Assembly (NCBI RefSeq): GCF_000350525.1 | Contig: NZ_AOCN01000026.1 | Location: 62,001 to 126,000 of the forward strand | Length of the DNA: 64,000 nucleotides | Origin: Leucobacter salsicius M1-8 | GTDB lineage: Bacteria; Actinomycetota; Actinomycetes; Actinomycetales; Microbacteriaceae | Reading direction: 5' to 3' | In this document: positions 47,319 to 60,938 of the stretch, piece by piece | Numbering within the stretch: position 1 is the stretch's first letter | How the letters are laid out: each line of letters starts with the position of its first letter | Notes under the pieces: model-generated | Databases searched by the model: none | Seen by the model: the letters and a program-made list of their open reading frames with translations, nothing else | Told to the model about the DNA's origin: nothing | Translations under genes and position numbers: made by a program

Positions 47319-47633
47319 ATGGCCAAGAAATACGAACCCGAGTTCCGTGAGCGCGCCCTCCGCATGCTCACCGAAGCTCTACCCGAACACGCAAGTCTTC
47401 ATGCGGCGAGTAAACACATCGGCGGGCTCCTTGGAGTCTCGCCCGACACGCTTCGCGTCTGGCATCGCCAAACCCAGGTCGACGCTGGCGCGAAGCCCGG
47501 TGTCACCACCGATATGAATGAAGAGAACCGTCGGTTGCGCCGCGAGAATGCGGAGCTTCGGAAAGCGAATGAAGTTCTCAAAGCTGCGAGCATATTTTTC
47601 GCGCAGGAACTCGACCGGCCACGATCGAAATGA
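47319..47633 (+). CDS. IS3 transposase OrfA
   Basis: A 104-residue OrfA. EFRERALRMLTEALPEHASLHAASKHIGGLLGVSPDTLRVWHRQ is the helix-turn-helix that binds the terminal repeats, and NEENRRLRRENAELRKANEVLKAASIFFAQEL is the leucine-zipper helix. The ATG is preceded by AAGGATAGG. Its stop overlaps the orfB start by ATGA, so OrfB is likely made by coupled reinitiation, by frameshifting to an OrfAB fusion, or both. Confidence 0.93.
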   Translation: MAKKYEPEFRERALRMLTEALPEHASLHAASKHIGGLLGVSPDTLRVWHRQTQVDAGAKPGVTTDMNEENRRLRRENAELRKANEVLKAASIFFAQELDRPRSK

Positions 47634-48541
47634 TCCGATTCATCGATAAGTATCGTGATCGTTTCGGGGTCGAGTTCCTCTGCCGCACGCTACGTGCGGC
47701 AGTCCGTGGTTTCCTCACCTCACGCGGGTATCGGGCAGCGAGGAACCGGCTGCCTTCAGCTAGGCACCTCCGTGATGAGATCCTCATCCCGGAGATCACG
47801 CGCCTCCACCACAAGCATTACGGCGTGTATGGTCGCCGCAAAATGCATGCCCTATTGCGGCGTGAGGGCTGGGAAATTGGCCGTGACGCCTGCGAGCGGC
47901 TCATGAAGATCGCTGGAGTACGCGGCGTGCAACGCTCGAAACGGGCATTCACCACGAAGAGCGACCCGGCGGACCGGCTGCCAGGTGATCTCGTGAATCG
48001 GAACTTCACTGCGGCAGCACCGAAGCGGTTGTGGGTCGTCGACATCACCTATGTTGCGACGTGGTCTGGGTTCGCGTACGTATCGTTCGTGACCGACGTG
48101 TACTCGCGCAGAATCGTCGGCTGGAATGTCGCTTCAACACTCAAGGCCGAGGTATTGCCGTTGCAAGCGCTTGAGATGGCGGCCTGGCAGGCCGGTGGTG
48201 ATCTCGAGGGGTTGGTGCATCACAGCGACCACGGCTCGAATTATATGTCGATGGTCTACACCAACCGGGTCGCAGAGCTCGGCGCGATCCCGTCAACCGG
48301 GACAGTCGGCGATAGCTACGACAATTCGATGGCTGAAGCAGTGAACGCGCTCTACAAAGCCGAATTGATCAGGCAGCAGGGGCCTTGGAAAACGGTCGAG
48401 CAGGTCGAGCTTGCGACGTTGGAATATGTGTGGTGGTGGAACAACGAACGCCTTCACGGGGAGCTTGATATGCGTACCCCTGCAGAGGTTGAAGCGGCGT
48501 ACTACGCTGTCACTGAACCGTTGCCCGCACTGACGATGTAA
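47630..48541 (+). CDS. IS3 transposase OrfB
   Basis: A 303-residue integrase-core transposase. The DDE residues are in LWVVDITYVATWSGFAYVSFVTD (first D), EGLVHHSDHGSNYMS (second D) and TGTVGDSYDNSMAEAVNALYKAELI (E), with the K/R after it. HHKHYGVYGRRKMHALLRREG is the HTH_21-like region. The frame is full length and has no stops. Confidence 0.95.
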   Translation: MIRFIDKYRDRFGVEFLCRTLRAAVRGFLTSRGYRAARNRLPSARHLRDEILIPEITRLHHKHYGVYGRRKMHALLRREGWEIGRDACERLMKIAGVRGVQRSKRAFTTKSDPADRLPGDLVNRNFTAAAPKRLWVVDITYVATWSGFAYVSFVTDVYSRRIVGWNVASTLKAEVLPLQALEMAAWQAGGDLEGLVHHSDHGSNYMSMVYTNRVAELGAIPSTGTVGDSYDNSMAEAVNALYKAELIRQQGPWKTVEQVELATLEYVWWWNNERLHGELDMRTPAEVEAAYYAVTEPLPALTM

Positions 48542-49720: not shown

Positions 49721-50590
49721 CTAATCCGAGACCGTCAAGAGCTCGAAGCCGTCCTCTCGCACCACGATGGTGTGCTCGAACTGCGCCGTTACGCTCTTGT
49801 CGCGCGTCGTCACCGTCCATCCGTCATCCCACTGGCGCCATTCGTGCGTGCCGAGGGTCAGCATTGGCTCGACGGTAAACACCATGCCCGGCACAATGAT
49901 GTCGCCGTATGCGGGAGCGGAGTCGTAGTGGGGAATGATGAGCCCCGAGTGGAATGACGACCCAACGCCGTGTCCCGTAAAATCGCGCACCACGCCGTAG
50001 CCAAATCGCTTAGCGTAGGTTTCGATCACTCGGCCGATCACGTTGACGGCGCGCCCGGGCTTGGCTGCCCTAATGCCACGCATCATGGCCTCATGCGTGC
50101 GCTCAATCAGCAGGTTCACTTCCTCGGATACCTCGCCGACCCGAAACGTGCGGTTGAGATCACCGTGCATGCCATCGAGGTAGGCGGTGACATCCACATT
50201 CACAATGTCGCCCTCGCGCAGCACGGTGTCGTCTGGCACGCCATGGCAGATCACTTCGTTGACCGACGTGCACGACGAAGCGCGATACCCGCGGTATCCA
50301 AGCGTCGACGGGTAAGCACCCTGCGAGATGACGTATTCGTGCGCCACGCGATCGAGCTCGGCAGTCGTTACCCCGGGCCGCACAACCTCAGCGACGGCGT
50401 CGAGCGCCCGCGATGCAACGCGGCCTGCCGCGCGAATGCGATCAACTTCTTCAGTGGTGTAGGTATTGTCGCCCACATGCGGTGGCGGGGTCTTGAGCCC
50501 CACATAGGGGGGGCGCACAATTTCCTGCGGCACCTGGCGAATGTTCGGGAGCGAACCTGGCATCAAATGTCCGTGTGAATCGAATGGCAT
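49721..50590 (-). CDS. map: Methionine aminopeptidase, type I
   Basis: A 289-residue metallopeptidase removing N-terminal methionine. Metal ligands are visible in DIVNVDVTAYLDGMHGDLNRTF (two Asp), FTGHGVGSSFHSGLIIPHY (His), FTVEPMLTLG (Glu) and QFEHTIVV (Glu). It has a ~40-residue N-terminal extension with PPYVG and PPP motifs, as in mycobacterial MapB, thought to contact the ribosome. The stop is 6 nt from the convergent lipoprotein stop. Confidence 0.95.
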   Translation of the reverse strand: MPFDSHGHLMPGSLPNIRQVPQEIVRPPYVGLKTPPPHVGDNTYTTEEVDRIRAAGRVASRALDAVAEVVRPGVTTAELDRVAHEYVISQGAYPSTLGYRGYRASSCTSVNEVICHGVPDDTVLREGDIVNVDVTAYLDGMHGDLNRTFRVGEVSEEVNLLIERTHEAMMRGIRAAKPGRAVNVIGRVIETYAKRFGYGVVRDFTGHGVGSSFHSGLIIPHYDSAPAYGDIIVPGMVFTVEPMLTLGTHEWRQWDDGWTVTTRDKSVTAQFEHTIVVREDGFELLTVSD

Positions 50591-50639
50591 AGCTCTATCC
50601 TAGGAGTGCGCACGAAACGCGCTAAAGGAGGCGAATATC

Positions 50640-50843
50640 ATGAGCAGTCAAGACTGGGGTGTCGATGACCCCGAAGAGACCTACTGGTTCAACACGCTCA
50701 CGAAGCAGGTCGAGCGCGGGCCGCAGTCGCCCGGCGTAGACCGCATCGGTCCGTTCAAGACCCGCGAGCTCGCGGAACACGCACAGGCCATCGTCAATGA
50801 AAAGGCCCGTCTGTGGAACGAGGAAGACGCAGACGAGACGTAG
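50640..50843 (+). CDS. Small SPOR-like conserved protein
   Basis: A 67-residue acidic protein: DPEETYWFNTLTKQVERGPQSPGVDRIGPFKTRELAEHAQAIVNEKARLWNEED. The pattern YWFN-x-V-E-x-G and R-x-GPF-x-T-x-x-x-A matches the small actinobacterial proteins annotated as SPOR-domain containing and often found beside map and glnA. Function unknown. AAAGGAGG precedes the ATG by 7 nt. The gene is complete and not part of glnA2 transcription, which has its own promoter. Confidence 0.8.
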   Translation: MSSQDWGVDDPEETYWFNTLTKQVERGPQSPGVDRIGPFKTRELAEHAQAIVNEKARLWNEEDADET

Positions 50844-50863
50844 TCTCCACGCAGTTTTCCACT

Positions 50864-50908
50864 TACCGCGCGCCCGTGTAACACGTTCGTTACGGGCGCG
50901 CGGTATGG
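50864..50908 (+). promoter_or_regulatory. glnA2 promoter with GlnR-like box inside a palindrome
   Basis: GTAAC (50878-50882), 6 nt, GTTAC (50889-50893) fits the GlnR half-site spacing. It lies in the centre of a perfect 14-bp inverted repeat, TACCGCGCGCCCGT (50864-50877) and its complement (50892-50905). TATGGT (50903-50908) is the likely -10, so the box covers the -35 region. Confidence 0.65.
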
Positions 50909-50967
50909 TTTGCCAGTGATCGCTTGCACCGCGCAACCGGTCGACCTTGAAGTAGGACGGAGCAGGC

Positions 50968-52305
50968 GTGAGCAAGCAGCGAGATTTTGTTCTCCGCACC
51001 ATCGAAGAGCGCGGCGTGAAGTTTGTGCGCCTGTGGTTTACCGACGTGTCGGGCACACTCAAATCTGTGGCGCTCGCGCCCGCCGAGGTCGAGGGTGCCT
51101 TCAACGAGGGCATCGGCTTCGACGGCTCCGCAATCGAGGGTCTCACGCGGGCTTACGAGTCTGACTTGCTCGCGGTACCGGATCCGGCCACATTTCAGCT
51201 GCTGCCCTGGCGCAGCCAGCAGGCCCCGACCGCCCGCATGTTCTGCGACATTCGGACACCCAACGACGAGCCGGCGGTGGCCGACCCCCGCAACGTGCTC
51301 AAGCGCACGCTTGAGCACGCGGCCGATCGCGGCTTCACGTTCTACACGCACCCCGAGATCGAGTTCTACCTGCTGAAGTCGAAGGAGTTTGGCCCCGAGG
51401 GGCCGATTCCCGTCGATCGCGCCGGCTACTTCGACAACGTTCCCGGCGGTACCGCGCACGATTTCCGACGCGAGAGCGTCGAGATGCTGGAGGACCTCGG
51501 TATATCTGTCGAGTTCAGCCACCACGAGGCGGGCCCCGGTCAGAACGAGATCGATCTGCGCTACGCCGACGCGCTCACGACCGCGGACAACATCATGACC
51601 TTCCGCACGGTGGTGAAGGAGGTCGCGATCTCGCAGGGCGTGCACGCCACCTTCATGCCCAAGCCGCTCGCGGGCCAGCCCGGATCGGGCATGCACACGC
51701 ATCTGTCACTATTCGAGGGCGACACGAACGCCTTCTACGACGCTGGCGCCAAGCACCAGCTGTCGCAGACGGGGCGTCGCTTCGTCGCGGGTCTCCTGCG
51801 GCACGCCCCCGAGATCACCGCGGTCACGAACCAGTACATCAACTCGTACAAGCGACTGTGGGGCGGCGATGAGGCACCCTCGTTCGTGAGCTGGGGCCAC
51901 AACAACCGTTCGGCCCTCGTGCGCGTGCCGATGTACAAGCCGGGCAAGGGTGGCGCCGCGCGCGTCGAGTACCGTGGCATGGACAGCGCCGTGAACCCCT
52001 ACCTGGGCTTCTCCGTACTGCTCGCCGCGGGTCTGAAGGGCATCGAGGAAGAGTACGAGCTGCCACCCGAGGCCGAGAACAACGTCTGGGCGCTCAGCGA
52101 TGGCGAGCGGCGGGCGATGGGCTTCGACGCTCTGCCCACGAGCCTCGACCACGCGCTCGCGGTGATGGAGCGCTCGGAGCTCGTCGCCGAGACGCTGGGC
52201 GAGCAGGTCTTCGCCTACCTGATTCGCGACAAGCGCCGCGAGGTGGCCGAGTATCACAGCCAGGTGACGCCCTACGAGCTCGCCTCGATGCTTGACACGG
52301 TGTAA
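50968..52305 (+). CDS. glnA2: Glutamine synthetase, GlnA2 type
   Basis: A 445-residue glutamine synthetase. Beta-grasp start KFVRLWFTDVSGTLKSVAL, latch GIGFDGSAIEG, metal and ATP segments HPEIEFYLLKSK, EFSHHEAGPGQNEID, HATFMPKPLAGQPGSGMHTHLSLF and the glutamate site NRSALVRVPMYK. The shorter length and the absence of an NLYELPPEE-type adenylylation loop (it reads EEEYELPPEAEN) match GlnA2 of actinobacteria, which sits before glnE. It starts at a GTG. glnE begins 4 nt after its stop. Confidence 0.92.
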   Translation: MSKQRDFVLRTIEERGVKFVRLWFTDVSGTLKSVALAPAEVEGAFNEGIGFDGSAIEGLTRAYESDLLAVPDPATFQLLPWRSQQAPTARMFCDIRTPNDEPAVADPRNVLKRTLEHAADRGFTFYTHPEIEFYLLKSKEFGPEGPIPVDRAGYFDNVPGGTAHDFRRESVEMLEDLGISVEFSHHEAGPGQNEIDLRYADALTTADNIMTFRTVVKEVAISQGVHATFMPKPLAGQPGSGMHTHLSLFEGDTNAFYDAGAKHQLSQTGRRFVAGLLRHAPEITAVTNQYINSYKRLWGGDEAPSFVSWGHNNRSALVRVPMYKPGKGGAARVEYRGMDSAVNPYLGFSVLLAAGLKGIEEEYELPPEAENNVWALSDGERRAMGFDALPTSLDHALAVMERSELVAETLGEQVFAYLIRDKRREVAEYHSQVTPYELASMLDTV

Positions 52306-52309
52306 GCCG

Positions 52310-55300
52310 GTGAGGGACTCGGCAGCGCAGCTGCGGCTCACCGATGTTGCGCGCGCCGGTTTCCAGGACCTCGGGGCCTCGCGGGACGAGCTCGCCGTTA
52401 TCTCGGAGCTCATCGACGTTCCCATCACGGAGGTGCTCGCCGCATTTGCCGGGGCCGCTGACCCCGACACCGCGCTCGGGCCGCTGCGTCGGCTGGCCGA
52501 GCAGCATCCGGATCGCGCGCGCGCCCTGGGCCCCGTGACACTCGGGCGGCTGTGCATGCTCGTGGGAGCCTCGCCCGCACTCGGTGATTTCTTCGCCCGA
52601 CACCCGGACCGGCTCGAGGAGATCCTGGAGCGGGGCGGCCGGATCGTCGAGCTTGAGGACGCGCACGCCCAGTTGCAGGCCGCGGTCACGCCAGTCCCCG
52701 GCACGACGCTCGCCGCAGAGCTGGGCTGGCTCGCGCTGCGCACCCGGTACCGGGAACTGCTGGCCGAGGTCGCGCTGTACGATCTCGACGCCAGCCGTGC
52801 AGGCCAAGCGACCGAGGTGTTTGAAGAGGTCGCGGCGTGCCTGTCAGACCTCGCAGCCGCCGCGATTGACGCCGCGCTCGTCGTGGCCGCGGCAACCCTG
52901 AGCGCGGGGGAGTCCGGCCCGCCCGTCTCGCCGGAGCGACTCGCTGCCGTGCGCCTCGGCATTGTCGCGATGGGTAAGTGTGGCGCGCGCGAACTCAACG
53001 TCGTCTCCGACGTCGACGTCATCTTTGTGGTCGATAGCGCCGATGAGGCGGTTGTTGACGGGGAGGCGCTGATCCGGATCGGAACGCGGCTCGCTAGCGA
53101 GACGATGCGCGGAATCCAAGATCCCGCGATCGAACCGCCGCTGTGGCAGCTGGACCCGAATCTGCGGCCCGAGGGCCAGCACGGGCCGCTCGTGCGCACG
53201 CCCGGTTCCATGCGCGCCTATTACGACCGCTGGGCGAAGGCGTGGGAGTTTCAGGCCCTACTTAAGGCGCGGCCGCTCGCCGGCGATCTCGTCCTGGCCG
53301 CCGATTTCGTGAGAGATACACGCGCCGCGGTGTGGACCTCCGCGTCACGCCCCGACTTCGTGGGCTCGGTGCAGCGCATGCGGCAGCGAGTCACCGAGCA
53401 CATCGCCGACGACGATCTCGAGGTGCAGCTCAAGCTCGGGCCCGGCGGCCTGCGCGATATTGAATTCAGTGCGCAGTTGCTGCAGCTCGTGCATGGCCAG
53501 TACGACGACCGCTTGCATGTCGCGGGCACCCTCGACGCGCTGCGTGCACTGGTGGAGCGGGGCTACATCGCCCGGGCCGATGGTGAGCAGCTCGCAAACG
53601 ACTATCGCGTGCTGCGAGTGCTCGAACACCGGCTGCAGCTGGAGGGCCTACGCCGCACCGCCCTTATGCCGACGGGGGATGACGAGCTCCGTGTCCTCGC
53701 CCGCGCATCGGGGTTCGCGACCACTGGGAGCGACCTGCGCGCGCTCTGGGAACGTACCAAGCTCGAGGTGCGCCAGTTGCACCTCAAGATCTTCTACGCG
53801 CCGCTTCTGAGCGCGGTCGCGGCGCTGCCCGACGAGGAGCTCGTACTCGGAAGCGATGCTGCGCTCGCCAGGCTCACGAGCATCGGCTTCCGCGACCCGG
53901 CGGGCGCGATGCGGCACCTCGCGGCGCTCACGCGGGGCACAACGAGGCGGGCCCGGATCCGGCGCAATCTCATGCCGGTGCTGCTCGGCTGGCTGTCGAA
54001 TGGCACCGACCCCGACTTTGGGTTGCTCGCGTTTCGCCGCGTGAGCGAGGCGAATGTGGAGAGCCCGTGGTATCTGCGGTTGCTGCGCGATGGCACCGAG
54101 GCCGCCGAGCGGCTGATGCGGGTGCTCTCGTGCTCGCGCTATGCCGCGGAGCTGCTGGAGTCGATGCCAGATGCGGTCGCGTGGCTCGAGCGCGACGAGC
54201 AGCTGCGGCCGCGCTCGCTGGAGCTGCTCATGGAAGAGATGCGGTCGCTCGCGTCGCGCCGAGACACCGCTGAGGAGTCCGCAGTCGCGCTGCGCGCGGT
54301 GCACCGCCGCGAGATTCTGCGCATCGCCCTCGGCAGACTCACCGGCGTGCTCGACGATACCGAGGTCTCGCAGGGCCTCGACGCGGCGCACACCGCGCTA
54401 CTCGACGCCCTGCTCGCTTCTGTGCGGCGCGAGAGCGCCGACGTGTCGCCCCCGGGATTCGCGCTCGCGCTGATTGGCATGGGCCGGTTTGGTGGGGGCG
54501 AAATGGGGTTCGCGTCAGACATCGATCTGATGGCAGTGTTTCGCGCGGATCCCGGGGTCGCTGGCGACGTCGCGTCCCGGCACGCGGCCAGCGCAGTGGG
54601 GGAATTGCGCAGGCTCGTTTCGGACCCGCGTTTCCCTGTCGACCTCGACTTCGACCTGCGCCCGGAGGGCAAGAACGGGCCCATTGTGCGCAGCCTTGAG
54701 TCGTACCGTAGCTACTACGAGCGGTGGTCGGTGACGTGGGAGGCCCAGGCGTTGCTGCGCGCGCGCCCCGTGGCGGGCGACGTGGGGCTCGGGCAGGCAT
54801 TTGGGTCGCTCGCTGATGAGCTTCGTTACCCCGAATCATTCCCTGAAGACCGGGTGCGCGAGGTGCGCCGCATGAAGGCACGCGTCGAGGCCGAGCGGTT
54901 GCCGCGCGGGCAAGATCCGCGGCGCCAGCTTAAACTCGGGCCCGGAGGGGTCTCGGACGTTGAGTGGCTGGTGCAGCTGGTGCAGCTCGAACACGGGGGA
55001 GCCCACCCGGCGCTGCGCACCGTGTCGACGCTGGACGCGCTGGCGGCGGCGGTGTCGCTGGGGCTGGTCTCGGCGCAGGACGCCGAACATCTCGAGGAGT
55101 CCTGGGAGTTCGCAAGCTCGGTGCGCTCGGCGCTCAAGCTATGGAACGGTCGGGGCGGCGATTTTCTGCCGACCGACTGGCGCGATCTCGAGGGCATCAC
55201 GGGTGTCCTGGGCTGGGAATCGGGGCGTACCACCGAGCTCGAGGAGCGCTGGCTTGCGGTGTCACGCCGAGCCCGGAACGTGACCGAGCGGGTGTTCTTT

Positions 55301-55336
55301 GGATACGAAGAAGATGAGCACTTCCTGACAAGGTAA
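52310..55336 (+). CDS. glnE: Glutamine synthetase adenylyltransferase/deadenylase
   Basis: A 1008-residue bifunctional enzyme that adds and removes AMP on GlnA1. It has two nucleotidyltransferase domains: KCGARELNVVSDVDVIFVVDSADE near residue 225 and GMGRFGGGEMGFASDIDLMAVF near 730, each with the catalytic D-x-D, and each followed by a helical GlnD-PII-like bundle. The GTG at 52310 is 4 nt past the glnA2 stop; an in-frame TTG at 52292 inside glnA2 is less likely. Its target tyrosine is in glnA1, encoded nearby on the other strand. Confidence 0.95.
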   Translation: MRDSAAQLRLTDVARAGFQDLGASRDELAVISELIDVPITEVLAAFAGAADPDTALGPLRRLAEQHPDRARALGPVTLGRLCMLVGASPALGDFFARHPDRLEEILERGGRIVELEDAHAQLQAAVTPVPGTTLAAELGWLALRTRYRELLAEVALYDLDASRAGQATEVFEEVAACLSDLAAAAIDAALVVAAATLSAGESGPPVSPERLAAVRLGIVAMGKCGARELNVVSDVDVIFVVDSADEAVVDGEALIRIGTRLASETMRGIQDPAIEPPLWQLDPNLRPEGQHGPLVRTPGSMRAYYDRWAKAWEFQALLKARPLAGDLVLAADFVRDTRAAVWTSASRPDFVGSVQRMRQRVTEHIADDDLEVQLKLGPGGLRDIEFSAQLLQLVHGQYDDRLHVAGTLDALRALVERGYIARADGEQLANDYRVLRVLEHRLQLEGLRRTALMPTGDDELRVLARASGFATTGSDLRALWERTKLEVRQLHLKIFYAPLLSAVAALPDEELVLGSDAALARLTSIGFRDPAGAMRHLAALTRGTTRRARIRRNLMPVLLGWLSNGTDPDFGLLAFRRVSEANVESPWYLRLLRDGTEAAERLMRVLSCSRYAAELLESMPDAVAWLERDEQLRPRSLELLMEEMRSLASRRDTAEESAVALRAVHRREILRIALGRLTGVLDDTEVSQGLDAAHTALLDALLASVRRESADVSPPGFALALIGMGRFGGGEMGFASDIDLMAVFRADPGVAGDVASRHAASAVGELRRLVSDPRFPVDLDFDLRPEGKNGPIVRSLESYRSYYERWSVTWEAQALLRARPVAGDVGLGQAFGSLADELRYPESFPEDRVREVRRMKARVEAERLPRGQDPRRQLKLGPGGVSDVEWLVQLVQLEHGGAHPALRTVSTLDALAAAVSLGLVSAQDAEHLEESWEFASSVRSALKLWNGRGGDFLPTDWRDLEGITGVLGWESGRTTELEERWLAVSRRARNVTERVFFGYEEDEHFLTR

Positions 55337-55351
55337 GGAACCAAATGTTGG

Positions 55352-55427
55352 TTCACTCGCTGTTTACCAAATTATTACGCCAAGTTTGGACTGGGCTCTA
55401 GCAAAATTCGTTACCCAAGCGTAATCT
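55352..55427 (+). promoter_or_regulatory. GlnR-like boxes and -10 upstream of a small ORF
   Basis: TTCAC (55352), TTTAC (55363) and ATTAC (55374) occur at exact 11-bp steps, the a-n6-b-n6-a layout of GlnR sites. A second pair, GTTAC (55410-55414) and GTAAT (55421-55425), has the same 6-nt gap. The last overlaps TAATCT (55422-55427), a -10 hexamer ending 7 nt before an ATG. The stretch is AT-rich. Confidence 0.55.
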
Positions 55428-55434
55428 GATCGTT

Positions 55435-55512
55435 ATGCAGTACTTACAAAGCTTCCTCGAAGCCCTGCTTTCAGAAGACGGGGCTGAGTTCGAAGATGAA
55501 CTAGAATCCTAA
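55435..55512 (+). CDS. Candidate 25-residue acidic small protein
   Basis: An ATG reading frame of 25 codons starting MQYLQSFLEALLSEDGAEF and ending with TAA. The product has eight acidic and no basic residues; the first half is an amphipathic helix with Leu/Phe on one face. TAATCT lies 7 nt before the ATG, so a leaderless transcript is predicted, and a strong terminator follows 41 nt downstream, defining a ~160-nt transcription unit. It sits between glnE and glnA1 under GlnR-like boxes. I recognise no family. Small acidic or basic proteins that modulate glutamine synthetase exist in cyanobacteria, but the link is speculative. Confidence 0.5.
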   Translation: MQYLQSFLEALLSEDGAEFEDELES

Positions 55513-55553
55513 TCATCCACCCGCGCACCAGCGATGTTGCGCCCGAGACACTG

Positions 55554-55595
55554 CAACGCCCCGGTTCAATCAGCTTCGATTGAACCGGGGCGTTG
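55554..55595. terminator. Terminator of the small ORF unit
   Basis: A perfect 18-bp stem, CAACGCCCCGGTTCAATC and its complement, with a 6-nt loop. It is the strongest hairpin of this intergenic region. Tail GTGCTG on the plus strand is not T-rich. The following ~145 nt to 55742 show nothing further. Confidence 0.8.
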
Positions 55596-55742
55596 TGCTG
55601 TGGGTGTGGGTGCGGGTCCCCTCTCTCCTTCGGCATGCTGTGCGCGCGAAGCGAGTCGCAGTATCCCAGCATCGCTGAGCCCGAGAAGAACCGACGACCT
55701 CATCGCCCACACGGTCATACGTGATGCGTGGCCAGATACAAA

Positions 55743-55792
55743 GAACTCCGCCGGGCCACAACTGCAGAAGCAATCGCGGCCCGGCGGAGTTC
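55743..55792 (-). terminator. Terminator of glnA1
   Basis: A perfect 15-bp stem, GAACTCCGCCGGGCC and its complement, with a 20-nt loop, lies 14 nt past the glnA1 stop and is followed on that strand by TTTGTAT. Confidence 0.82.
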
Positions 55793-55806
55793 ATGAGCTC
55801 GGAGCG

Positions 55807-57231
55807 TTAGATCCCGTAGTACAGCTCGAACTCGTACGGGTGCGGGCGCAGGGCCATCGGCATGATCTCAGTCTCGCGCTTGAGCTTGATCCAGGTCTCG
55901 ATAAGCTCCTCGGTGAACACGCCACCCTCGAGCAGGAACTGGTGATCAGCCTCGAGCTCGCGGAGGGCCTCCTCGAGCGACGCCGGCACCTGAGGAATGT
56001 TCTTAGCCTCCTCGGGCGGCAGCTCGTAGAGATCCTTATCGATCGGCTCCATCGGCTCGATGCGGTTGCGGATCCCGTCGAGGCCAGCCATCAGCTGAGC
56101 CGCGAACGCCAGGTAGGGGTTGCTCGAAGCGTCGGGTGCACGGAACTCGATGCGCTTGGCCTTCGGGTTCGATCCGGTGAGCGGAATGCGCACTGCCGCC
56201 GAGCGGTTGCCCGCCGAGTAGGCCAGGTTGATCGGTGCCTCGTAGCCCTTGACCAGGCGGCGGTAGCTGTTGATCGTCGGGTTGGTGAACGCAAGCAGCG
56301 CGGGAGCGTGGTGCAGGATGCCGCCGATGTACCAGCGCGCGAGGTCCGAGAGGCCTGCGTAGCCGTTCTCGTCGTAGAACAGCGGCTCGCCGTCCTGCCA
56401 CAGCGACATGTGGGTGTGCATACCCGAACCGTTGTCGCCGAAGACGGGCTTCGGCATGAACGTTGCGGTCTTGCCCCACAGGTCGGCGGTGTTCTTCACG
56501 ATGTACTTGAACTTGAGCACGTCGTCAGCTGCGCACACCATGGTGTCGAAGCGGTAGTTGATCTCAGCCTGGCCGGGAGCGCCAACCTCGTGGTGCGCAC
56601 GCTCAAGGTGCAGTCCAGCCTCGATCAGGCGCAGCGAGATGTCATCGCGCAGATCGGCCTGCTTGTCGGTGGGGGAGACAGGGAAGTAGCCGCCCTTTTC
56701 GCGGGTCGTGTACCCGGGGTTGCCGCCCTCCATCTTGCGACCCGAGTTCCAGTGCGCCTCTTCAGAGTCGATCTCGTAAAACGAGCGACGCGGCGTCGTC
56801 TCGTAACGCACGGAATCGAGAATGTAGAACTCGGCCTCCGGTGCGAAGAACGCAGTGTCGGCGATGCCAGTAGACGAAAGGAAGCGCTCAGCCTTCTTGG
56901 CAACCTGGCGGGGATCCTTCGAGTAGATCTCGCCCGTGCGCGGGTTGAAGATGTCGCAGATCACAATAATGGTGCGCTCGGCACGGAACTGATCGAGGTA
57001 GATCGTCGTGGGATCCGGGATCAGCTGCATGTCCGAGTCAGCGAGGCCCGAGAAGCCAGCAATTGACGAACCGTCAAACATCTGGCCAATCTCGAAGAAG
57101 TCGAGGTCGGCTGCCGAGGCGGGGATGTTGAAGTGGTGCTGCACACCCGGGAGGTCGGTGAAACGAATATCGACGAACTTTACGTCCGTTTCCTTGATGA
57201 AGTCGATGACTTCCTGGGGGCTCTTGAACAT
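55807..57231 (-). CDS. glnA1: Glutamine synthetase type I
   Basis: A 474-residue dodecameric glutamine synthetase, the main ammonium assimilation enzyme. Blocks include [20 protein letters not shown], the latch [63 protein letters not shown] and [23 protein letters not shown]. The adenylylation tyrosine is in [18 protein letters not shown], so GlnE can control it. It is expressed from its own promoter, with a GlnR-like box about 76-102 nt upstream of the start. Confidence 0.97.
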
Positions 57232-57306
57232 GCTGCTCCTCGTAGCTGGTGCACCGAACGATATGGCGCGCTACGCCCCAGCTTACGCGTCCTCGGTTTC
57301 ACGACC

Positions 57307-57333
57307 GTGAGAAAAGTGTTACGCGCGTGTTAC
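57307..57333 (-). promoter_or_regulatory. GlnR-like box of glnA1
   Basis: On the minus strand GTAAC-n6-GTAAC-n6-CTCAC (57333 down to 57307) reproduces the three-part GlnR operator with 11-bp phasing. It ends about 76 nt before the glnA1 start. This is the clearest GlnR-type site in the window. Confidence 0.72.
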
Positions 57334-57336
57334 AAA

Positions 57337-57370
57337 AAGCCCGGCACAGGCTGAGGCCTGTACCGGGCTT
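57337..57370 (-). terminator. Terminator of the RDD gene
   Basis: AAGCCCGG-n-ACAGGC and its complement (15 positions, one mismatch) with a 4-nt loop. On the minus strand it ends in a T5 tract, isolating glnA1 from the upstream RDD gene. Confidence 0.85.
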
Positions 57371-57419
57371 GCCCAATTACTGAGGACGTCTCGATAAGCG
57401 GGTGCTAAATCTACAGCTG

Positions 57420-57857
57420 TTAGCTCCGGATCAACACGGTGCCAGCGATTTTATCGTGGAAGCCGCGCTGGTCCGAGTCCCACACTGCCACAGGGATCAC
57501 GATGCACAGGAGCAGCGTGCGCACGATCGGACGCCACGGGCCCACCCAGCCGCCCGCGATGGGCAGCACACGCATCCCCATGATTCGGTGCCCGAGGGAG
57601 CCGCCGATCGTGGGGATAAACACGATCTGCATGCCCGCGAAGATCGCGAGCTGCCACCAGGAGGCCTGCGGGCCGCCAATGAGCAGGTAGGCGGGAATCG
57701 CGGCCAGCGCCCAGTCGATGACGATGGCACCGATGCGGCGCCCCAGGCGCCCGACCGACCGGGGGCCGGTTTCAGGAAGCCCCAGGCGCTCTCCGGGCCA
57801 CTCGCTCGGTGCGAGATCGCCGAACTTCTGCGGCTGAGAGGAGGAGGGTTTCGACAT
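57420..57857 (-). CDS. RDD family membrane protein
   Basis: A 145-residue RDD protein with about three membrane helices. RRIGAIVIDWALAAIPAYLLIGG contains the family Arg and Asp, and TIGGSLGHRIMGMRVLPIAGGWVGPWRPIVRTLLLCIVIPVAVWDSDQRGFHDKIAGTVLI is the typical second half with the conserved Asp-x-x-x-R-G-x-H-D. The role of such proteins is uncertain; ion or solute transport is suggested for some. It follows the DUF4191 gene by 15 nt. Confidence 0.88.
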   Translation of the reverse strand: MSKPSSSQPQKFGDLAPSEWPGERLGLPETGPRSVGRLGRRIGAIVIDWALAAIPAYLLIGGPQASWWQLAIFAGMQIVFIPTIGGSLGHRIMGMRVLPIAGGWVGPWRPIVRTLLLCIVIPVAVWDSDQRGFHDKIAGTVLIRS

Positions 57858-57872
57858 TGTGTGCGGGGCCGC

Positions 57873-58565
57873 CTAGCGCGGGCGCTGCGAGCGGACCTTG
57901 TTGGGGTCCATGCCCTTGGGGATGCCGACGGGCGTGCCCTGCAGCGAGGAAAGGCGGTTGTAAACGGCCGCGATCTCGTTGCGGTTGAGGGCCGGCTTGA
58001 GCTTCACGAGCGCCTTCGAGAGCTTCGCGAGCGGAATGCCGTCCCCGTCGGGACCCACGTAGAGGTGCACGACCTTGACGCCCTGCAGTGCGCGCTTAAC
58101 CTTGCGCTCCTCATCGGCGGCCATGCGCTGGGTACGCTGCTGCGATCCCTCAGAGATGAGGACCACACCGCCGCGTCCGATGACGCGATACACCGCGTCC
58201 TGGTTGCGGTTGATCGCAATCGGGGTCTCCGAACCGCGCCACGAACGACGCAGCGAGCTCTGGATTACTGCGCCAACGGCGCCCGGGCGCCCCTCGATCT
58301 GGTTGTATGCCACCTTCTCGGCACGACGACCGAGCACGATCATCACCAGCAGGATGCCGATGAGGACGCCAGTGAGGGGCCACAGGATCCAGCTAAACCA
58401 GGTGCCGCCGGGCAGAAGCAGGGCGAGCAGCACGGCCACCGCAATGGGGCCGAGGAAGCACGCAAGCAGCGCTAGCGGCAGGTTTCGATCGTGAACCTTC
58501 GTGGTCCGGTAGATCTCGATCATCTGCTTGATGCGACCGGTACGCTTCGCCTTCTTTTCTGCCAT
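57873..58565 (-). CDS. DUF4191 membrane protein
   Basis: A 230-residue actinobacterial protein: basic N-terminus MAEKKAKRTGRIKQMIEIYRTTKVHDR, two membrane helices (LPLALLACFLGPIAVAVLLALLL and FSWILWPLTGVLIGILLVMIVLG), then a soluble domain with RGGVVLISEGSQQRTQRMAADEERKV. It matches DUF4191, a family regularly found beside glnA1 and the lipoyl/E2 genes; function unknown. The ATG at 58565 follows TATTCT by 6 nt and also has GGGGG; the longer frame from 58634 is not supported. Confidence 0.85.
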   Translation of the reverse strand: MAEKKAKRTGRIKQMIEIYRTTKVHDRNLPLALLACFLGPIAVAVLLALLLPGGTWFSWILWPLTGVLIGILLVMIVLGRRAEKVAYNQIEGRPGAVGAVIQSSLRRSWRGSETPIAINRNQDAVYRVIGRGGVVLISEGSQQRTQRMAADEERKVKRALQGVKVVHLYVGPDGDGIPLAKLSKALVKLKPALNRNEIAAVYNRLSSLQGTPVGIPKGMDPNKVRSQRPR

Positions 58566-58724
58566 GCCCCCAGAATATCGTCTCTGGGGCGACTCGGCGT
58601 ACACCGGGTGCCCAGGGGCCCACTGTTCGCTCACAGCGCCCGGGTTTGGGCCCGGATCGGCAAGTTATTCACATTCTTCTGAGGGCTCTTGTCTTGAAGG
58701 CCCCGCCGCCGGATCGTGGAGGGT

Positions 58725-59123
58725 ATGAAATCCTCGATGCTACCCTCCCGCAGTCCACCCTCTCCAGGCGCCGCGGCTCGCCTCGCCGCGCGACTCGAGC
58801 GGTTTTGCGGGGTCGGGATTGGCTATCGCGCGCTCGGTGAATGCGTCGAGCCGGGTGTCTCTGCGCGCACCCATCGGAGGCTCGGCCACGACGCGGGATG
58901 TGCCACACTCGGCGTGCCTCGCCGCTCGATTGAGTTGACGCTGCAGATGTGGGATGACGAGGGCGCAGCTCCGCTCCTGCTGGAGGCAGTAGATGAGGCC
59001 ATCAGCGCGCTCGCTGACACGGTACCCACGGCCGGATCTGCAGGCGGCATTGCCTGGAGCGCACAATTGGCGCGGGAGTGTGTGGCCTACGCGATCCGGA
59101 TCAGAATCACGCCAGCGACGTAG
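58725..59123 (+). CDS. Hypothetical protein
   Basis: About 132 residues; I do not recognise it. The codon pattern has high GC in third positions through ARLAARLERFCGVGIGYRALGECVEPGVSARTHRR and the acidic AAPLLLEAVDEAISALADTV, which supports real coding. GGAGGG lies directly before the ATG at 58725, too close for that start but suitable for an ATG at 58737. An overlapping minus-strand frame (58740-59165) is less convincing. The start and the gene itself are uncertain. Confidence 0.4.
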   Translation: MKSSMLPSRSPPSPGAAARLAARLERFCGVGIGYRALGECVEPGVSARTHRRLGHDAGCATLGVPRRSIELTLQMWDDEGAAPLLLEAVDEAISALADTVPTAGSAGGIAWSAQLARECVAYAIRIRITPAT

Positions 59124-59173
59124 CGTGTGCGGGTGAAGCCAGAGAGTCATGGCTCCACTCGGCACAGGAAACG

Positions 59174-59213
59174 CACTGCGGCCGCGGCTTCCGAAGAAGC
59201 CGCGGCCGCAGTG
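59174..59213. terminator. Terminator of the E2 gene
   Basis: A perfect 18-bp stem, CACTGCGGCCGCGGCTTC and its complement, with a CGAA loop. It is placed 28 nt past the minus-strand E2 stop. Confidence 0.85.
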
Positions 59214-59240
59214 TCAGCAGCTTGCGCTGCAGGGTATGAC

Positions 59241-60938
59241 CTACATGCCGAGGTCGCCCACGAAGTCGCCGGCCTCGAGGCGCGTGCGCACCTGGCTGAG
59301 GAAGCGAGCCGCATCAGCGCCGTCTACGATGCGGTGATCGTAAGAGAGCGCCAGGTAGACCGTGGAGCGGATCGCGATGGTGTCACCATCGGGAGTGGAG
59401 ACCACCACAGGCTTCTTCACAACCGCGCCGGTGCCGAGGATGGCAACCTGGGGCAAGAAGACGAGCGGCGTGTCGAACAGTGCGCCGCGCGATCCCGTGT
59501 TCGTGAGGGTGAAGGTGCCACCGCTCAGCTCATCGGGCGTCAGCTTGTTGTCGCGAGTACGTGCCGCCAGGTCTGCGATGTCACCCGAGATCTGTGCGAG
59601 GTTCTTCTCACCAGCGTCACGGAGCACGGGCGTCAGCAGGCCACGCTCGGTGTCAACCGCGATGCTGATGTTCTCGTGATCGGGGTAGACGATCTGGTCG
59701 CCATCCACCGTCGCGTTGACGATGGGGTAGGTGCGCAGCGCCTCAGCGGCAGCCAGCGCAAAGAAGGGCAGGAACGAAAGCTTCGAGCCCGTCTTCGCGA
59801 GGAACTCGTCCTTCTTGGCCTGGCGAAGCTTTGCGATGCGGGTGACATCCACCTCGACAACGGTCGTCAGCTGAGCGGTGCTCTGCAGCGACTGCACCGC
59901 ACGCTCGGAGATGACCTTGCGCAGGCGGCTCATCTTTACCGTGGTGCCGCGCAGCGGCGAGACCTCAACCTCGGCCTTGGCCTGAGCAGCGGGTGCTGCC
60001 GAAGCGGCGGGCGCCGGCACTGCAGCGGCGAGGACGTCTTCCTTGCGAATGCGGCCGCCCACACCGGTGCCGGTGATGGTGCCGAGGTCGACGCCGCGCT
60101 CGTTTGCGAGCTTGCGGACGATCGGGGTGATGTAGTTTGCGCTGGCCGCTTCAGCCGGAGCTGACGCGGGCGCCGGTGCGGCGGGAGCTGCTGCGGCGGG
60201 CGCAGGAGCAGCCGGAGCAGCAACCGAGGGTGCCGGTGCGGGAGCAGCAGGCGCTGCCGCGGGAGCCGGGGCTGCCACAGGGGCTGGTGCAGCTGCAGCA
60301 GGTGCTGCGGGTGCAGCGGGTGCAGCAGCGGGCGCGCTCGAGCCGATGCGCGCGAGCACACCGCCCACCTCGACGGTGTCGTCTTCCTGAACCATGATCG
60401 CCTGCACGATGCCTGCGATCGGCGAGGGCACCTCGGTGTCGACCTTGTCGGTGGAGACCTCGAGCAGCGGCTCGTCGACCTCGATTGAGTCGCCGACGCT
60501 CTTCAGCCAGCGCGTGACTGTACCTTCGGTGATGCTCTCACCGAGGGAAGGGAGCACGACATCCTGGCCGTCAGCCGCAGGGGCTGCGGCTGCTGCCGGA
60601 GCCGCGGGTGCCTCAACCGGAGCGGCGGGCGCTGCCGGGGCAGCAGGAGCAGCAGGAGCAGCCTCAGCGGGTGCTGCCGGGGCGGCGGGGGCTGCGCCCG
60701 AGCCGTCACCGATGCGAGCGAGCTCTGCGCCCACCTCAGCGGTCTCGTCTTCTTCCACGAGGATTGCCTCAAGCACGCCTGCGACCGGTGAGGGGATCTC
60801 GGTATCGACCTTGTCGGTGGAGACCTCGAGCAGCGGCTCGTCGACCTCTACCGTGTCGCCGATGTTCTTCAACCAGCGGGTGACCGTACCCTCAGTTACA
60901 CTCTCACCCAGTGCGGGGAGGACTACCGATTCACTCAT
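59241..60938 (-). CDS. sucB: Dihydrolipoamide acyltransferase (E2), two lipoyl domains
   Basis: A 565-residue E2. Two near-identical lipoyl domains with lipoylated Lys in [14 protein letters not shown] and [14 protein letters not shown] (residues ~43 and ~165) are joined by Ala/Pro linkers. The E3-binding domain is [37 protein letters not shown]. The catalytic domain ends with [27 protein letters not shown] (DHRxxDG). In corynebacteria one E2 serves both pyruvate and 2-oxoglutarate dehydrogenase. With AceE encoded at 29.9-32.7 kb and no second E2 seen, the same sharing is plausible. lpd is 39 nt upstream on the same strand. Confidence 0.92.

Follow-up and report, generated by a model that had tools for sequence, protein, structure and literature searches.

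A conserved 25-codon microprotein gene beside glnE in Leucobacter with a predicted PhoP-type promoter

Small proteins that act on glutamine synthetase (GS) are already known from cyanobacteria (IF7 and IF17; PMC6316151) and from Methanosarcina (sP26; PMC11957540). In the part of the source on which we draw, three conserved arginines mediate the action of IF7, and arginines are used by IF17 as well (PMC6316151). The protein sP26 of Methanosarcina mazei has 23 residues and is reported to interact with GlnA1, and the excerpts used here from that study describe small effects only, with stable binding of sP26 not observed in vitro (PMC11957540). For mycobacteria, a 5'-terminal ATG or GTG is described as both necessary and sufficient for translation without a leader (PMC4633059). 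The PHO box of Streptomyces coelicolor consists of two 11-nt direct repeats with GTTCACC as the most conserved motif (PMC4415409), and at nitrogen genes of the same species the sites of PhoP overlap those of GlnR (PMC10704036). Among the matches listed in our literature search, there was no PHO-box microprotein beside glnE; nor was there, among the matches listed and with subscription journals thinly covered, any small protein acting on GS in actinobacteria, at GlnE or in Leucobacter.

The locus described here belongs to Leucobacter salsicius M1-8 (genome of 3.19 Mb in 28 contigs) and lies in a window, i.e. the whole stretch of 64,000 nt that was analysed (G000:C26:62001-126000), in which glnA2, glnE, a gap and a convergent glnA1 together span 50968-57231. 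The flanking genes named by a first-pass annotation of this DNA are borne out by profile matches: glnE (glutamine synthetase adenylyltransferase, 52292-55336, forward strand) matches NF010707 with 1164 bits and glnA1 (type I glutamine synthetase, 55807-57231, reverse strand) matches TIGR00653 with 647 bits. The name glnA2 comes from that annotation, and the profile model matched by the gene is a type I glutamate-ammonia ligase. Judged by a reading of its protein, an ORF at 47630-48541, about 2.4 kb before glnA2, is IS3-type transposase-like. The ORF at 55435-55512 (forward strand), which lies in the gap between glnE and glnA1, runs from ATG to TAA and is translated as MQYLQSFLEALLSEDGAEFEDELES; it has eight acidic and no basic residues, in agreement with the 25 codons and the charge of about -8 that had been noted.

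Compared with the described systems, the Leucobacter peptide shares with IF7 and IF17 the common idea of a small protein adjusting GS, whereas these proteins are of 7 and 17 kDa and arginine-dependent in the part of the literature used here (PMC6316151), and the Leucobacter peptide has 25 residues, is acidic (net charge -6 to -9 across 40 copies, with any K or R in 7/40) and lacks conserved basic residues. The parallel to IF7 and IF17 that had been drawn does not hold at this point, and because the arginines are missing the peptide is not an IF protein. It is closer in size to sP26 and, by its predicted target, alike in the tie to glutamine synthetase, a comparison made by description only; sP26 is archaeal, in contrast to a Leucobacter peptide whose control looks phosphate-type (PMC11957540, as far as excerpted). 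With the leaderless small proteins of mycobacteria it would share an ATG or GTG at the 5' end, predicted here, and the lack of a Shine-Dalgarno sequence, but the mycobacterial examples in the portion of that source considered here are ORFs upstream of operon genes and the Leucobacter gene is a free-standing unit (PMC4633059). The likeness to actinobacterial PHO-box genes lies in GTTCACC direct repeats at 11-bp steps, as far as the excerpted source describes them (PMC4415409), and the geometry of pstS is also found here.

Our data reveal that 55435-55512 is a real, conserved protein-coding gene. The DNA of the gap was matched in relatives of the same genus, with matches that start at about 55396-55410 and extend at least to the stop codon (80-86% identity for the ten best), and over all 40 copies the mean pairwise identity per 20-nt step rises from 0.35, 0.37 and 0.44 to 0.61 up to the start codon, reaches 0.67-0.75 inside the ORF and is 0.34-0.30 past the stop codon (unweighted). 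In 25 representatives the differences at codon positions 1, 2 and 3 number 1980, 981 and 3885, and the pooled pN of 0.231 against a pS of 0.623 indicates that silent sites vary most and that the peptide is under purifying selection. Many relatives differ from the window's copy by a pN of 0.04-0.06 at a pS of 0.6-0.8, among them G048 (pS 0.80, pN 0.04). Length is exactly 25 codons in all 40 copies read after glnE, and the start is ATG in 37 and GTG in three. Both the frame conservation and the synonymous bias for which the first-pass annotation had suggested a search in relatives were thus found, and its reading of the ORF as a microprotein is upheld. L8 and E9 are invariant among the 19 peptides used for the profile (A1, built from 19 of 25 different peptides), and there is little variation at the start, L4 and L12. 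The amphipathic helix that had been proposed receives modest support, as the helical moment of 0.40 is reached by 4% of shuffles for the window's peptide and by a median of 10% over the 40 peptides. The window's peptide matches no family in Pfam and NCBIfam at E up to 1, and a PDB search with the peptide profile gave no significant match (best E 0.043).

The profile search found the peptide in 41/54 Leucobacter genomes, or in 38/45 when good-quality genomes are considered, with one good copy in each of the 41 and a second, weak match in a single genome; the remaining 13/54 have no copy. Reading of the DNA 3' of glnE in 51 Leucobacter genomes, the window's own included, identified the ORF in 40, beginning 76-240 nt after the glnE stop, and revealed no counterpart in 10 of the 13 peptide-negative genomes (only 214 nt were read in G010; G038, G042 and G050 stand outside the count). 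glnE is directly upstream of the gene in 40 of the 41 Leucobacter genomes that carry it. In the extra genome, G022, some 1.9 kb that include other genes separate the peptide gene from glnE, and there the promoter, frame and tail are intact; intact promoter and ORF away from glnE imply that the peptide gene is a unit of its own. The position of glnA1 is more variable: no more than some 520 nt separate it from the glnE stop in 21/40 peptide-bearing genomes, it lies 0.9-1.6 kb away in seven, and it is not within the DNA examined 3' of glnE in the other 12 (one of these being a contig end). glnE is therefore the constant neighbour of the peptide gene, and glnA1 is not.

Outside Leucobacter the sole convincing match among 398 genomes of the family is G138, the only genome of its genus (E 1e-6). 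Its peptide, MNYLQSFLDAILAEDADELESDLES, directly follows glnE, and the gene has the TAACCTGATCGTTATG start (-10/ATG) block of many Leucobacter and a GTTCACC in register at -72. The 23 family genomes that match at E up to 0.1 comprise eight Leucobacter, G138 and 14 weak partial matches (best E 0.0037), which were discounted because they lie in frames of 246 residues or more; among 297 genomes of the order, only the window's own copy was found at E up to 0.01. A wide distribution was rejected, as the convincing matches in these two sets are limited to Leucobacter and G138, and so was a mobile origin, the peptide being without a match among plasmids or phages. In a GlnE tree of 59 rows, three changes suffice to explain where the peptide is present, compared to 14.9 with shuffled labels, and G138 falls outside Leucobacter under midpoint rooting (22/56 inner branches are well supported, and many rows are short). 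A single old origin followed by later losses would be a simple reading of this tree.

The -10 element TAATCT (55422-55427, forward strand) was found, as had been noted, to end 7 nt 5' of the ATG, and a TAnnnT is present at -13 to -8 in 33/40 genomes, whereas a Shine-Dalgarno-like sequence occurs in 1/40. The usual distance from a -10 box to the start of transcription is 6-7 nt. From the position of the -10 box and the lack of a ribosome-binding site we predict, with considerable confidence, an mRNA that is leaderless and has its 5' end at the ATG or next to it. A probable -35 element, TAGCAA at 55399-55404 (forward strand, 17-nt spacer), covers two conserved columns, T at -36 and G at -34, and is a weak match to TTGACA. 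A simple sigma-70 promoter scan lists no promoter at the gene because of this weak -35, which would fit an activator. Downstream, folding predicts a hairpin of 19 pairs on the forward strand (55553-55571 with 55578-55596), possibly a two-way transcription end common to the microprotein gene and glnA1. A strong hairpin (z below -2) follows the ORF in 26/36 genomes, four of the 40 having too little downstream DNA for this test. Of the 18-bp terminator described earlier, the hairpin thus stands, with 19 pairs, but it is no more than a putative terminator, as it has no T-run and is absent from the list of the terminator scan.

Upstream of the -35, in the position of an activator, lies a PHO-box-like row of half-sites (GTTCAC, GTTTAC and ATTAC, 55351-55378, forward strand), in which TTCAC (55352-55356), TTTAC (55363-55367) and ATTAC (55374-55378) follow each other at exact 11-bp steps. 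A further pair, GTTAC (55410-55414) and GTAAT (55421-55425), is separated by 6 nt and extends over the -10 box (55410-55425, forward strand). Both arrangements are as the first-pass annotation had reported them. Over 40 related and non-independent genomes, TTYAC occurs in the 11-bp register 32 times, compared to a mean of 0.26 and a maximum of 3 in 1000 shuffles; these are 32 of 38 TTYAC sites, spread over 23/40 genomes, and an exact in-register TTYAC is absent upstream in the other 17. With 25 representatives only, the count is still 21/24 sites in register, and these come from 16 of the representatives. Half-site pairs exactly 11 apart number 15, versus 0.29 in dinucleotide shuffles, and motif discovery without guidance, run on the 40 promoters of the microprotein gene, returned nGTTnACcnncnGtTcAC. 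The pattern GTNAY-n6-GTNAY is found over the -10 box in 21/40 genomes, out of register with the other half-sites, and the AAGC spacer of the GTTAC-n6-GTAAT pair is more conserved than the first half-site of that pair.

These half-sites had been read as GlnR boxes, and the peptide as a nitrogen-regulated regulator of GS. The idea is reasonable given that GlnR is present in the window's genome (95.9 bits), and it draws further on the 11-bp spacing, on the pair over the -10 box, which could be a site for GlnR as a repressor, and on a few relatives (promoters of G002, G029 and G020) that score closer to the GlnR model. The letters of the half-sites nevertheless point elsewhere. In Leucobacter, the 11-bp half-sites upstream of amtB are mostly GAAAC, GTGAC and GAGAC, and those upstream of glnA1 mostly GTAAC, then GAAAC or GTAAC, CTCAC/ATCAC and GAAAC/GAAAT, whereas pstS has GTTCACC GTTCACC. 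The window's own glnA1 promoter (57296-57333) carries GTAAC, GTAAC, CTCAC and GAAAC at 11-bp steps and is a clean candidate GlnR operator of the genus. NNNAC half-sites that start with TT amount to 56/79 at pstS and 26/65 at the microprotein gene, versus 0/38 at glnA1 and 4/92 at amtB, the last figure favouring the contrast since amtB promoters without a good GlnR-type chain (L234, L241 and L255, 3/30) were dropped from this count and from the half-site models. The pstS set omits L263, L265 and L267 (3/30), which have longer frames and are apparently a different gene; the glnA1 set is composed of the 12/28 loci with the gene start included, minus L171, plus the window's own. No 11-bp half-site chain was found upstream of glnA1 in L171 (Leucobacter sp. 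cx-42), and G014 has no amtB match. At amtB and pstS, a first motif search converged on other conserved sequence and was set aside for both genes, and the half-site models were then derived from narrower stretches. Measured by raw score, the pstS model exceeds the amtB model in just 14/40 microprotein promoters; its excess over shuffles is larger (14.7 versus 6.4), a comparison that is partly circular because the training sites of the pstS model were chosen for TTCAC. The spacing is also that of pstS: the second TTYAC lies 37 nt from the -10 box in 27/27 pstS promoters examined, and the corresponding distance is 37, 48, 59 or 70 nt (37 + 11n) for 32/39 sites in the microprotein promoters, the seven other sites having 29, 34, 38, 49 or 79 nt. 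GTTCACC-like 11-bp repeats placed as at pstS are thus present in the window, whereas GTnAC/GnAAC half-sites spaced like those of the glnA1 and amtB promoters are all but absent from the 40 sequences (GAAAC is in the 11-bp register in 0/5 and G[AT][AG]AC in 1/14). We consider PhoP-type control of the microprotein promoter likely, and a nitrogen-regulated regulator under GlnR improbable. The overlap of PhoP and GlnR sites in S. coelicolor makes a mixed site possible, as excerpted from PMC10704036. Other regulators of the OmpR family may take the place of PhoP. MtrA, for example, is such a regulator.

Two further readings deserve very little credence. One is a regulatory sRNA, about 160 nt long, in which the ORF would be incidental; it had been offered as an alternative and would suit a unit with its own promoter and a strong terminal hairpin. 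Silent sites, however, change most, conservation tracks codons and ends at the stop codon, and RNAalifold found no consensus structure in the ORF, all of which argue for a protein gene; an Rfam scan of 50000-60000 gave nothing above threshold, its two weaker matches being to a microRNA family and to a snRNA family. Attenuation, in which the ORF would encode a leader peptide that controls a gene further downstream, is just as remote: the shortness of the ORF, its probably leaderless mRNA and the hairpin after it would suit this reading, but selection acts on the whole peptide, and the reading was rejected because glnA1, which is the first recognised gene downstream, runs in the opposite direction. 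What a microprotein under PhoP-type control would act upon is a different matter. It could belong to the phosphate regulon and have a target unrelated to nitrogen (PhoR, a transporter, the membrane or RNA polymerase), its position after glnE being due to inheritance only. The PHO-box-like promoter is consistent with this, G022 keeps the gene away from glnE, and adjacency across one genus may well be inherited; on the other hand, the gene adjoins glnE in 40/41 Leucobacter genomes and also in the separate genus of G138, and we regard a target unrelated to nitrogen as rather unlikely.

A target in nitrogen assimilation is suggested by what else these genomes contain. PII is the usual signal to the control of glutamine synthetase adenylylation in enterobacteria. 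A P-II gene was found in only 2/54 Leucobacter genomes (G041 and G050, one with the peptide and one without), and the same model matches 13/14 control genomes; amtB is present in 50/54 and a glnE match in 53/54. GlnE in this genus would thus operate without its textbook signal. With glnE as the constant neighbour and PII nearly absent, GlnE or glutamine synthetase is our best guess for the target, a prediction we put forward tentatively. In the mechanism that we propose, a PhoP-type response regulator would turn on the peptide gene in phosphate starvation, a leaderless mRNA would be translated from its ATG into the acidic peptide of 25 residues, and the peptide, less certainly, would dock on GlnE (or, next best, on GlnA1) through the short helix LxxFLEALLA and the acidic tail. 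A helix carrying L4, F7, L8, L11 and L12 together with an acidic tail would fit a protein-docking peptide. Nitrogen assimilation would then be tuned to a shortage of phosphate in a genus nearly devoid of PII. As a whole, a microprotein gene under PhoP-type control with GlnE or GS as a guessed target is quite conceivable, if a little on the doubtful side. That the phosphate-starvation-induced peptide takes the place of PII in signalling to GlnE, with the adenylylation of GS being set directly by a lack of phosphate, is a bolder version that we think unlikely.

If the proposal is true, a microprotein would link phosphate to nitrogen, and what informs GlnE in actinobacteria without PII would become a testable question. 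The gene is a conserved one of 25 residues, without a Pfam or NCBIfam model, for which an inducer (low phosphate) is predicted and candidate partners (GlnE and GlnA1) can be named; to the leaderless microproteins mapped in mycobacteria it adds a probable one from outside that group, recognised solely through its conservation.

The pattern GTTCACNNNNNGTTYAC occurs three times in the whole genome, namely in the microprotein promoter, at pstS and beside an arsenite-exporter-like gene, and a backward control pattern gave one chance match in the same genome. The third occurrence, L293 (G000:C3:51748-51764), adjoins a gene that is ACR3-type arsenite-exporter-like on a reading of its protein, and its presence there may reflect either chance or a link between phosphate and arsenate.
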